Shown in pieces: positions 25,695 through 34,890 of a stretch of DNA of 64,000 bases. The stretch's first letter is position 1. Each line of letters starts with the position of its first letter. The notes beneath the pieces are model-generated. The model saw nothing but the letters and a program-made list of their open reading frames with translations, was not told the DNA's origin and did no database searches. Position numbers and translations under genes: made by a program. The DNA comes from Hydrogenobacter sp. T-8. Its GTDB lineage: Bacteria > Aquificota > Aquificia > Aquificales > Aquificaceae. The stretch covers positions 310,001 through 374,000 of the forward strand of contig NZ_CP048795.1 of the NCBI RefSeq assembly GCF_011006175.1, read 5' to 3'.

Positions 25695-26993
25695 ATGAAG
25701 TATTTCCTTTCAGAAAGTCAGATACCAAAAAGATGGTTTAACATAGTTCCCTACCTTCCAAAACCCCTTGACCCACCCCTTGACCCCCAAACTGGTCAAC
25801 CTGTTAGCCCAGACAAGCTCCTCGCCATATTCCCAGAGCCTATAGTGGAGCAAGAGGTTTCAGACAAGGAATGGATAGATATTCCAGAAGAGGTGCTAAA
25901 AATATACAGCCTTTGGAGACCTACTCCCCTTCACAGGGCAAAAAACCTTGAAGAATACTTAGGCACACCTGCAAAGATCTTCTACAAAAACGAGAGCGTC
26001 TCCCCTCCTGGAAGCCACAAGCCAAACACCGCGGTTGCACAAGCATACTACAACAAGATATCAGGTGTGAAAAGGCTTACCACAGAAACGGGAGCAGGTC
26101 AGTGGGGAAGCTCTCTTTCCTTCGCTACCCAGTTCTTTGGGCTTGAATGCGAGGTTTTCATGGTAAGAGTGAGCTATAACCAAAAACCTTTTAGAAGGAT
26201 ACTTATGGAAACTTGGGGTGGCAAGGTGGTTCCCTCCCCAAGCCCCCTTACGCAGTCAGGAAGGAAGTTTTACGACGAAAACCCAGAACACCCAGGAAGC
26301 CTTGGCATCGCCATAAGCGAAGCCATAGAGAGAGCCGTCTTTACCCCAGACACCAAATATTCCCTCGGAAGCGTCCTAAACCATGTTTTACTTCACCAGA
26401 CAGTTATTGGGCTTGAGGCAAAGCTACAGATGGAAATGGCAGGATACTATCCAGACTATGTGATAGGTTGTATAGGTGGTGGAAGTAGCTTTGCAGGCAT
26501 AGCCTTCCCCTTTTTGAAGGATAAACTAACAGGAGAGAAACCAAACCTTGAAGTGATAGCGGTTGAGCCCAAAGCCTGCCCAACCCTCACAGAAGGAGAA
26601 TATAAATACGATTATGGAGACACGGTTGGGCTTACGCCCCTTATAAAGATGTATACCCTTGGGCATGATTTTGTCCCTCCACCCATACATGCGGGTGGCT
26701 TGCGTTATCATGGTGATGCACCACTTGTCTGCCTCTTGTATCATGAAGGCTTTGTCTCCGCATCCGCCTACAAACAAAGAGAAGTCTTTGAATCCGCTGT
26801 TATCTTCGCAAGGACAGAGGGTATAGTGCCTGCTCCAGAGTCCGCTCACGCCATAAAGAAAGCGATAGACATAGCCCTTGAGTGCAAGAAGACTGGAGAA
26901 GAGAAGGTTATCCTCTTTAACCTCTCAGGACACGGATACTTTGACCTAAACGCTTACTATATGTATCTAAAGGGAGAGCTTCCAGATACTTAA
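25695..26993 (+). CDS. trpB2: Tryptophan synthase beta chain, TrpB2 type
   Basis: A 432-residue PLP enzyme, longer at the N-terminus than ordinary Trp[12 protein letters not shown] holds the PLP lysine, [13 protein letters not shown] follows, [10 protein letters not shown] binds the cofactor phosphate, and HAGGLRYHG is TrpB2-specific. It joins indole (or makes it usable) with serine to give tryptophan; TrpB2 proteins often act without TrpA. AGGAGGGTAAC precedes the ATG. The stop is followed within 3 bases by the convergent SRP RNA gene. Confidence 0.93.
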
Positions 26994-26996
26994 AAA

Positions 26997-27073
26997 CCCC
27001 GCACCCGAGACTGCAGGTCTACCGTTGCTCCCTTTCGGGCCTGGCGGGGTTCAACCCTGTCCCGTTGCGGGGC
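26997..27073 (-). ncRNA. ffs: Signal recognition particle RNA (4.5S type)
   Basis: On the minus strand the ends pair (5' GCCCCGCA at 27073-27066 with TGCGGGG at 27003-26997), and the conserved Ffh-binding tip is seen: GCCAGGCCCGAAAGGGAGCA followed by ACGG. This is the short bacterial SRP RNA, which guides ribosomes with signal peptides to the membrane. TATAAT/TATAAAT just upstream (about 27077-27090) is a likely promoter, and a T run follows the 3' end. The first 23 bases overlap the 3' end of trmFO. Confidence 0.9.
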
Positions 27074-28394
27074 TATTTATAATTATATCCTCGTTTACGC
27101 ATTTTGCCCACTCCTGCATGATGCTTATAGCCCTCTCCGCCAAAAGCCTTTTCCTCTCCTGTTTATCCTTTACCCTTTTCTCTAAGGGTGGCAAAAGTCC
27201 AAGCACAGGGGACATGGGTTGAAGCGTCCCTTCCTTACTGGTTATATACCTCACAAGAGAACCCAGCATGGTCTCCTCTGGTGGGACAACCAAGGGTTTA
27301 CCCTTCATAAGCCTTCCTGCGTTTATACCGGCTAACAGACCAGTGCCTGCGGATGCGGAGTATCCTTCCACGCCTGTTATCTGTCCAGCAAAAAAGATAT
27401 TCTCATACTTCCTCATATTCAAAAAGGGCGTGAGAATCCTGTTTGACTGTATAAAGGTGTTTCTGTGCATAGAGCCAAGTTTTACAAAGACCGCATTTCT
27501 AAGACAGGGTATTAGTCTAAGAACTCTTTTTTGTTCTGAGTAAGTCATGCGTGTCTGAAAGCCTACAAGGGAAAGCAGGGTGCCTTCCTTGTTTTCTTTT
27601 CTTAACTGGACCACGGCGAAGGGCTCTTTGCCCGTTTTGGGGTCCACCAGTCCCACAGGCTTCATAGGTCCAAAGAGAAGAGTTTTATAGCCTCGCTCAG
27701 CCATCTCCTCCACGGGCATACAACCTTCAAAGTATACAAGGTTTTCAAAGTCCTTTGGTTGAATCTTCTCAGCCTTCAAAAGCTCTTCGTAAAAGAGTTT
27801 GTATTCCTCCTCTGTAAGAGTGCAGTTAAAGTAGTCATCTCCTCCCTTTCCGTAGCGCGACGCCCAAAAGCCCTTTGAAAAGTCTACACTGTCCGCCTCC
27901 ACTATGGGGGATATGGCATCATAAAAGTAAAGGTAGTCAAAGCCCACAAGCTCCCTTATGTCCTCTGTTAGAGCAGGCGACGTGAGGGGCCCTGTGGCTA
28001 CTATCACAATGCGGTCTCTTGGAACCCTTTTTACCTCCTCCCTTACAAGCCTTATGTTGGGATGTTCTAAGATTTTTCTGGTGATGTATTCCGAGAACAG
28101 CTCTCTGTCTACCGCAAGGGCTGTACCTGCAGGCACATGGGCGTGCTTGCCTGCTTCTACCACCAGAGAGTGGAGAAGTTCCATCTCAGCTTTTAAAAGA
28201 CCAGCACCAGAGGTAAGCTCCACGCTACCGAGGGTATTGCTACAAACCAGCTCTGCCAACCGCTCCGTTCTGTGGACTGGCGTGTATTGATTAGGCCTCA
28301 TCTCGTAAAGTAATACCTTAATGCCCATGTTTGCCAGTCTGTAGCTGGCTTCTGAGCCTGCCAGACCACCTCCTATTACAATGACTTCTTCCAT
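27051..28394 (-). CDS. trmFO: tRNA U54 methyltransferase TrmFO (folate/FAD-dependent)
   Basis: A 447-residue FAD protein. EEVIVIGGGLAGSEASYRLA is the FAD-binding loop, and RLAELVCSNTLGS and VEGYSASAGTGLLAG are TrmFO signatures. It methylates U54 in the T-loop of tRNA with methylenetetrahydrofolate. The last eight or so codons and the stop lie inside the SRP RNA gene, so the C-terminal residues (SPATGQG) are dictated by the RNA. The start is 18 bases from the divergent glmS ATG, sharing an AT-rich palindromic promoter region. Confidence 0.95.
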   Translation of the reverse strand: MEEVIVIGGGLAGSEASYRLANMGIKVLLYEMRPNQYTPVHRTERLAELVCSNTLGSVELTSGAGLLKAEMELLHSLVVEAGKHAHVPAGTALAVDRELFSEYITRKILEHPNIRLVREEVKRVPRDRIVIVATGPLTSPALTEDIRELVGFDYLYFYDAISPIVEADSVDFSKGFWASRYGKGGDDYFNCTLTEEEYKLFYEELLKAEKIQPKDFENLVYFEGCMPVEEMAERGYKTLLFGPMKPVGLVDPKTGKEPFAVVQLRKENKEGTLLSLVGFQTRMTYSEQKRVLRLIPCLRNAVFVKLGSMHRNTFIQSNRILTPFLNMRKYENIFFAGQITGVEGYSASAGTGLLAGINAGRLMKGKPLVVPPEETMLGSLVRYITSKEGTLQPMSPVLGLLPPLEKRVKDKQERKRLLAERAISIMQEWAKCVNEDIIINSPATGQG

Positions 28395-33822: not shown

Positions 33823-33851
33823 TTGACAAAAACGAATAGAATAGTTATAAT
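33823..33851 (+). promoter_or_regulatory. Strong consensus promoter
   Basis: TTGACA (33823-33828), a 17-base spacer and TATAAT (33846-33851): a perfect match to the sigma-70-type consensus, the best promoter in the window together with that of CRISPR array 1. It does not precede a convincing gene but reads into the structured region 33858-34175. Confidence 0.75.
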
Positions 33852-33857
33852 AAAACA

Positions 33858-34175
33858 CAGAACTAACTATTACAATTATGTGGGAGGCTCCCCCTCCCGA
33901 ATTAAAACTAACTGAAAATGTATCAGCTTGGTTTATACATAGAGTATCCCTTAGTATAGACAAATATCCCTTTTAGGGACATTTATCCACACCTCGGGTT
34001 TAGGGGCTCACCGACCCCAATGCCTTACTCCAGAGGCACTAATACCGCTCATCAAGCAGGCTTTTTATACCCACTTGATAAGGGCTTGCAGAGTGCAGTG
34101 TAAACACCAACCTCACCTAACACGGTTAGGCGAGCCTTTGTCGGTGTTCACGTTCCGCACCCCGCTTTAAAAACT
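33858..34175 (+). ncRNA. Candidate long structured RNA, unknown family
   Basis: About 320 bases without a credible gene. Local stems: GGGAGG/CCTCCC (33882-33898), ATGTAT/ATACAT (33918-33940), TCCC/GGGA (33967-33979), GGGG/CCCC (34003-34017), GCCT/AGGC (34022-34037), ATCAAG/CTTGAT (34051-34079), and a long two-part arm in which GTG and ACACC (34098-34108) pair with GGTGT and CAC (34143-34151) around CTCACCTAA/TTAGGCGAG (34112-34134). Driven by a consensus promoter. It is not tmRNA, SRP RNA or RNase P RNA by its conserved cores. Ends are approximate. Confidence 0.5.
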
Positions 34176-34204
34176 AAAGAATAATATACAACATTTATCT
34201 TCGT

Positions 34205-34890
34205 TTGTCAACATTTTCAAAGACTAGTCGCCAAGACCTTGATAACATATATGGTGCGTGTCTCGACCATTTCGGAATAAAGGTCGGAAATTCTAAATTT
34301 TTAGAATACGAAAAGTGTATAATAGAACAATTTCTATACAGTTTATACTTAATTCGTAGCCTTATGGTTGATAGCCTTGATAGGAATGACATAAACATAC
34401 GTTTTGTAAAAGCCTTTGCAGAATTTGAGAACCTTCCTTTTTCCAAGACCATAAACATACAACAAATTCTGTCATCTGTTGGTGTTAAACTAATGATATA
34501 CAGCTTGCCCTTGAAGTTACCACTGACCTTAGTATAAAAAGGTTGGACCTTGACGGTATAGCAATATTCTCTGGCGATATCGATATGTATCCTATAGCTT
34601 CTTAGATAAAAGAGCATTTTGGAAGGGATGTTTATATTGTATCTTACTCTAAGAGAATTAATTCCATAGAAGGATTGAAAAACTGGCTAAAGAAAAACGA
34701 CTATGCAACAACTGGGTTGATAATAACTAACTGGTTACCAAGATGGAACTTAGATATGGATCAAAAACAAGCTAATGAATGTCTAAAAAGGCTTATAGAA
34801 GAAGGTTTGTTAGATAAGGAAGGCATAGTGTTTCAAAAGGAATATGAGGAAGGCGATAATTTAATAGGCAGGTTCTTCCTATCTCCTTAG
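34205..34890 (+). pseudogene. Decayed NYN (LabA/DUF88-type) domain gene
   Basis: Two frames together give an NYN-like protein. Frame 2 from about 34205 ends with SSVGVKLMIYS. Frame 1 continues from about 34501 with QLALEVTTDL, LDLDGIAIFSGDIDMYPIAS, then a TAG (34603-34605), then IKEHFGRDVYIVSYS and a C-terminal winged-helix-like part to TAG at 34888-34890. GVKL followed by SGDIDMYP is the core of NYN/PIN-like RNases. At least one frameshift and one nonsense codon are needed, so the gene looks dead. The start is uncertain. Confidence 0.6.

Follow-up and report, generated by a model that had tools for sequence, protein, structure and literature searches.

Mobile structured guide RNAs are exemplified by the HEARO RNAs of IscB elements, some of which have been reported without an adjacent nuclease gene. 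HEARO is a different RNA from the one described here, and it belongs to another nuclease (IscB) and another transposon family. Closer to the present locus are the IS607 elements, which pair a serine-recombinase tnpA with tnpB and insert without target duplication, using a dinucleotide common to the target and both element ends (PMC6188088, PMC10711439). In the IS200/IS605 family, which owes its mobility to a Y1 transposase, the omegaRNA (reRNA) of TnpB has a scaffold that overlaps the tnpB 3' end and extends to the right end of the element (PMC8612924, PMC10278001), and retention of IS200/605 elements through cutting of element-free copies by TnpB has been reported (PMC11870625). Some IS607 TnpB proteins are accompanied by reRNAs derived from RAGATH-18, structured right-end RNAs of roughly 200 nt that lie wholly outside the tnpB ORF and are associated with AGGAG or GAGGG TAMs (PMC11061315). 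Short non-coding derivatives such as MITEs and PATEs consist of the ends alone and presumably move in trans (PMC7290912, PMC3119063).

The locus lies within a 64-kb stretch of DNA (the window, analysed at its full length) from a 1.8-Mb genome held in a single contig. It almost certainly derives by deletion from a TnpB-encoding transposon of the IS607 family: the protein genes are gone, and the 293-bp leftover retains a promoter together with a complete, strongly conserved guide-RNA structure (Table 1). The element reads on the minus strand and interrupts, at a GTC target, a nuclease gene named NYN-type after a sub-threshold Pfam match (15.8 bits against a cut-off of 24.2). We put the probability that it is an IS607 miniature and that its RNA has a use as a guide, taken jointly, at about 75%. 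Most likely, this guide RNA would borrow TnpB in trans and target the miniature's own empty insertion site.

Compared with described systems, the miniature shares its ends and left-end promoter with tnpA-tnpB elements of congeners, but it carries neither gene and the exchanged dinucleotide is TC, in contrast to the GG of the IS607 members studied (PMC6188088, PMC10711439). As with IS200/IS605 omegaRNAs, the scaffold overlaps the 3' end of the tnpB sequence and its terminus coincides with the right end, and therefore the host flank would serve as the guide. It differs from them in standing apart from tnpB behind a left-end promoter, in its lack of an Rfam match and in belonging to an element moved by a serine recombinase. 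Unlike the RAGATH-18 reRNAs, it overlaps a remnant of the tnpB ORF, goes with GTC at the left end and again finds no match in Rfam, and what sets the element apart from MITEs and PATEs is that a promoter and the whole of a conserved guide-RNA domain accompany its ends. TnpB systems have been studied as a nuclease and its RNA in one element, whereas here, in several lineages, the RNA seems to travel alone under a promoter of its own. This makes it possible to test directly whether transposons share guide RNAs in trans, and the miniatures offer natural minimal scaffolds of an omegaRNA family missing from Rfam, in the order that holds the Aquificaceae. A literature search, with most subscription papers outside its reach, returned no description of a guide-RNA-only IS607 miniature or of a miniature that keeps an omegaRNA.

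Table 1. Features of the miniature and its host gene, in window coordinates.
Feature	Position	Strand	Basis or remark
Perfect sigma-70 consensus TTGACA-17-TATAAT, NYN gene	33823..33851	(+)	12/12; ORF starts at 33878
NYN-type gene, N-terminal piece, MWEAPPPELKLTENVSAWFI(H)	33878..33941	(+)	homologs in other genera contiguous across the insertion
Presumed guide TATGTATAAACCAAGCTGAT, first ~20 host bases past the right end, antisense to NYN codons	33922..33941	(-)	analogy with TnpB systems
Miniature, 293-bp, non-autonomous, IS607-family	33942..34234	(-)	left end 34234, right end 33942; shared ends, empty sites
tnpB fossil, codons 437-513, with stops and frameshifts, under the RNA	33942..34153	(-)	tblastn of TnpB against the element, E 4e-9
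3' terminal hairpin, closing CCC/GGG, beside the right end	33948..33998	(-)	helix 3 of alignment A1; 98.7% paired, 5/15 pairs changed on both sides
Fourth hairpin, GGGG...CCCC	34003..34018	(-)	individual folds; outside the counted consensus
Third hairpin	34020..34039	(-)	helix 2 of A1; 100% paired, mostly invariant
Second hairpin	34044..34085	(-)	helix 1 of A1; 98.9% paired, 8/17 pairs changed on both sides
5' hairpin of the omegaRNA/reRNA	34088..34165	(-)	95.5% of cells paired, 26/32 pairs changed on both sides, 19 sequences
Promoter consensus TTGACA-17-TATATT, left end, directed into the RNA	34183..34211	(-)	TTGACA at 34211, TATATT ending at 34183; 11/12 match
Target trinucleotide GTC, presumed TAM	34235..34237	(-)	adjoins the left end; empty alleles of three siblings, end logo
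Remainder of the NYN-type pseudogene, DLDNIYGACLDHFGIKV...	34235..34890	(+)	further frameshift and stop

Alignment of six ~300-bp copies with seven tnpB-bearing copies revealed abrupt common ends, GTCTTGGCGACTAGTCT on the left and AAGGGATACTC on the right. Three sibling insertions have empty alleles in congeners that read flank-GTC-flank, and these delimit the element proper and define GTC as its target. The empty sites show no target duplication and indicate exchange over an identical dinucleotide, the TC common to the target and both element ends. A sequence logo gave R-GTC at the left end (46 matches, a few of them probably due to chance) and, among 49 right-end matches, a T following the end in 38; one insertion site (L050) has GTT in place of GTC. 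The flank following the right end is variable, while the GTC preceding the left end is constant. With its tnpB remnant broken by stops, the 293-bp element has no coding capacity, and elements of this kind, with the ends of a coding element, number ~15 copies in six species.

Serine-recombinase tnpA genes occur in elements with the same ends, which identifies the parent family. IS607 recombinase genes scored above the cut-off in genomes G002, G005, G006, G009 and G012. In G012 (contig C7, L204) the same left end, with TTGACA-17-TATATT, directly precedes a tnpA above the NF033518 cut-off, followed by tnpB, and in G006 (L203) the order is tnpA-tnpB-RNA. There is an apparent series from tnpA plus tnpB plus RNA, through tnpB plus RNA (1.6 kb), to RNA only (293 bp). 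No IS607 TnpA exceeded the cut-off in the genome studied here, and the element may therefore be immobile in it. An IS200/IS605 parent with a Y1 (HUH) transposase was also considered and rejected, the IS607 recombinase giving the better fit: across 14 genomes of the genus a single Y1 gene was found (G000), interrupted and not beside copies of the RNA. That gene is split by an insert of ~1.3 kb with a ~400-codon ORF on the opposite strand (G000:C1:750261-751956, L202).

The RNA is encoded on the minus strand and shows strong covariation. A preliminary description of the locus had proposed an orphan structured RNA read from the perfect plus-strand promoter, and several hairpins, CTCACCTAAC/GTTAGGCGAG among them, do lie downstream of that promoter. 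The strand assignment did not hold: folding energies were -144.9 kcal/mol for the minus strand of 33858-34178 (z -10.8; range -10.2 to -10.8) and -87.2 kcal/mol (z -2.7) for the plus strand, and the lowest of 256 tiles in the window is the minus-strand tile at this position (z -8.1; next -4.8). Moreover, the stems are completed by G-U pairs that only a minus-strand RNA can form. For the 3' part, a structure of 36 pairs was 98.9% paired among 21 sequences (against 89.8% when shuffled and no more than 40.1% when slid), and 14 of the 36 pairs had changed on both sides. The pairing of the 5' hairpin likewise exceeded its shuffled (75.4%) and slid (at most 50.6%) controls among 19 sequences; as the structure was derived from the same sequences, the slid control is biased in its favour, but the two-sided changes are independent of this. 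A conserved structure thus sits at the 3' end of tnpB and reaches the right end of the element. The absence of a known RNA class, noted previously, was borne out by the suggested Rfam scan, in which no family reached its gathering score in the region and nothing relevant appeared up to E 5, RAGATH-18 included (the one match at E<=5 was meaningless). The RNA family is new to Rfam; a TnpB omegaRNA and a non-autonomous element are kinds of object already known.

Nor is the RNA an orphan. Searching the genome with the region yielded six further copies, seven in total, and many more were present in relatives, most of them extending over the 3' end of a ~500-aa ORF. The ORF encodes TnpB, as judged by NF040570 ('RNA-guided endonuclease TnpB', 103.8 bits, cut-off 100) and PF07282. 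This genome has four intact tnpB genes (514 aa) and two broken ones; the RuvC-II and RuvC-III motifs of the intact TnpB align with solved Cas12f/TnpB chains, and the last 74 nt of the window RNA are 89-91% identical to the copies beside the genome's tnpB copies. A covariance-model search, also proposed in the preliminary description, detected the RNA in 22 of the 112 genomes searched from the order. The description had further listed a match to an insertion-sequence end as evidence against a new RNA; the RNA is indeed a transposon end, yet that end carries a genuine conserved RNA. Named relatives of TnpB come from Aquificaceae MAGs, Hydrogenothermaceae MAGs and one Thermodesulfobacteriota MAG. 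On a contig of the latter (JAUQQL010000020.1; L214, L215) TnpB is 77% identical, suggesting phylum-crossing transfer or misbinning.

Miniatures of ~280-360 bp, made up of the left-end promoter, the RNA and the right end, were found in G000 (one), G013 (one), G003 (four), G005 (seven or eight), G007 (one) and G012 (one), and all of these retain the RNA. Judging from sequence comparison, RNA-only miniatures probably had at least three separate origins within the genus, because their left ends most resemble those of the local tnpB lineage (77% identity in G000/G003, 71-77% in G005/G007 and 79-82% in G012, over 62 bases, a length that makes this weak evidence of descent). The draft assembly of G003 contains four miniatures but yields no tnpB above threshold; since one RNA copy there is cut off by the end of its contig, a tnpB may have escaped assembly. 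The covariance model gave 19 matches in G005, also a draft (L118-L135), of which seven or eight are promoter-bearing miniatures and the rest mostly tnpB fragments, resembling a burst of decaying copies. In G013 a miniature is directly followed by a second, partial RNA copy in tandem (L043:5978-6401).

The main rival to guide use is that these are passive IS607 miniatures, in which the RNA is a fossil of the deleted tnpB 3' end, decays neutrally and has been spread by TnpA alone. We regard this as possible, though well short of an even chance. In its favour are the lack of a TnpA above the cut-off in this genome and the fourth hairpin, which in individual folds is short in miniatures and long in tnpB-bearing copies. 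It is also consistent with two deletion derivatives in G004 that lack the 5' hairpin, and hence the whole RNA is not kept by every miniature. In the G005/G007 set, pairing reaches 88.8% (shuffled 85.2%) and 21 pairs show two-sided change, alongside many private breaks; the broken pairs private to G005 miniatures mean that individual copies decay, the structure having been present in the founders. Against a passive fossil, promoter and RNA have been kept together in miniatures of at least three lineages. Furthermore, the 5' hairpin overlies RuvC-III codons in tnpB-bearing copies and is non-coding in the window copy, and the stems of the window lineage still pair although the coding frame is gone. 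Finally, the footprints of IS1535 TnpA cover only LE 18-67 and RE 7-28 (PMC6188088), far less than the ~230 nt retained, so that retention of the RNA is unexplained by the transposition needs known from IS1535.

The balance of this evidence is reflected in our view that the miniature RNA probably is, or recently was, used as a guide. A variable stretch, the presumed guide, adjoins the RNA and a candidate TAM lies by the left end, and from these we infer reading by TnpB. The left-end promoter would make an omegaRNA/reRNA scaffold of ~230 nt, and the transcript would continue beyond the right end, so that the adjoining 16-20 bases of host DNA become the guide. A resident intact TnpB would bind the miniature RNA in trans, the complex would cut element-free copies of the locus (GTC plus the guide sequence), and repair from an element-bearing copy would restore the miniature. 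Movement would require IS607 TnpA supplied by another element. The first 16 bases of the guide are unique in the genome, other sites carrying two mismatches; a guide aimed elsewhere in the genome was rejected, as only such two-mismatch sites were available. More tentatively, and at somewhat less than even odds, Aquificaceae IS607 elements may have repeatedly shed tnpA and tnpB to yield self-transcribing guide-RNA miniatures that parasitise resident TnpB in trans and through it hold and spread their insertion sites, a non-autonomous, RNA-only gene drive.

The host gene accounts for the perfect plus-strand promoter, whose sequence and spacing were correctly reported. Homologs of the NYN-type gene in other genera (355-404 aa) read unbroken through EVPPP...DFDNIYGGCLD (a query with part of the gene found none in 61 relatives, while a longer query did). 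Because codons resume past the element and homologs are contiguous, the promoter is most simply that of the NYN gene, now a pseudogene with further lesions. The region had been described as free of genes, yet the ATG at 33878 is the N-terminus of this gene, which continues beyond the element; likewise the decayed NYN gene, rightly recognised on one side, is interrupted by the element and not merely adjacent to it. A plus-strand non-coding RNA from this promoter is therefore very improbable. Its promoter matches at all 12 positions with the right spacing and transcription across the element is likely, but such transcripts would be antisense to the RNA, which has its own minus-strand promoter consensus; plus-strand folding is weak, covariation, G-U pairs included, favours the minus strand, and the promoter precedes the start of a gene whose homologs run straight across the element. 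Among the functions previously suggested, nothing supports a phage-defence RNA, and a mobile-element guide RNA was right in kind, though not in strand, promoter or relation to the NYN gene. An apparent orphan RNA behind a consensus promoter can thus turn out to be a mobile element lodged in a host gene. Restoration of the NYN frame by simple excision was considered and would be inexact, since four extra bases (CATA) stay behind on the side of the right end and the gene is damaged elsewhere too.

A role as a host-domesticated regulatory guide, in which the RNA would send TnpB, or a TnpB that has lost its activity, to shut down the adjacent gene or some other host locus, is scarcely credible. 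In its favour, the codons to which the predicted guide is antisense lie shortly after a strong promoter; against it, the gene is a pseudogene, the genome lacks a second full guide match, the resident TnpBs keep their RuvC motifs and GTC does not adjoin the guide target while the element is in place.

Several tnpB-bearing copies (among L039, L041, L042, L045 and L052) lie in or beside genes resembling toxin-antitoxin or nucleotidyltransferase-HEPN pairs (GSR-motif proteins, HicA-like; ORFs judged by eye). At window positions 34195-34240, opposite-strand ORFs take their first codons from the left end (MSTFSKTSRQDL in the window, MSIFSETGRQDL in L045), and automatic gene calls may therefore give false N-termini beside such elements. 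Elsewhere in the window, a bacterial small SRP RNA (RF00169) was detected at 26986-27081 on the minus strand with 57.4 bits.
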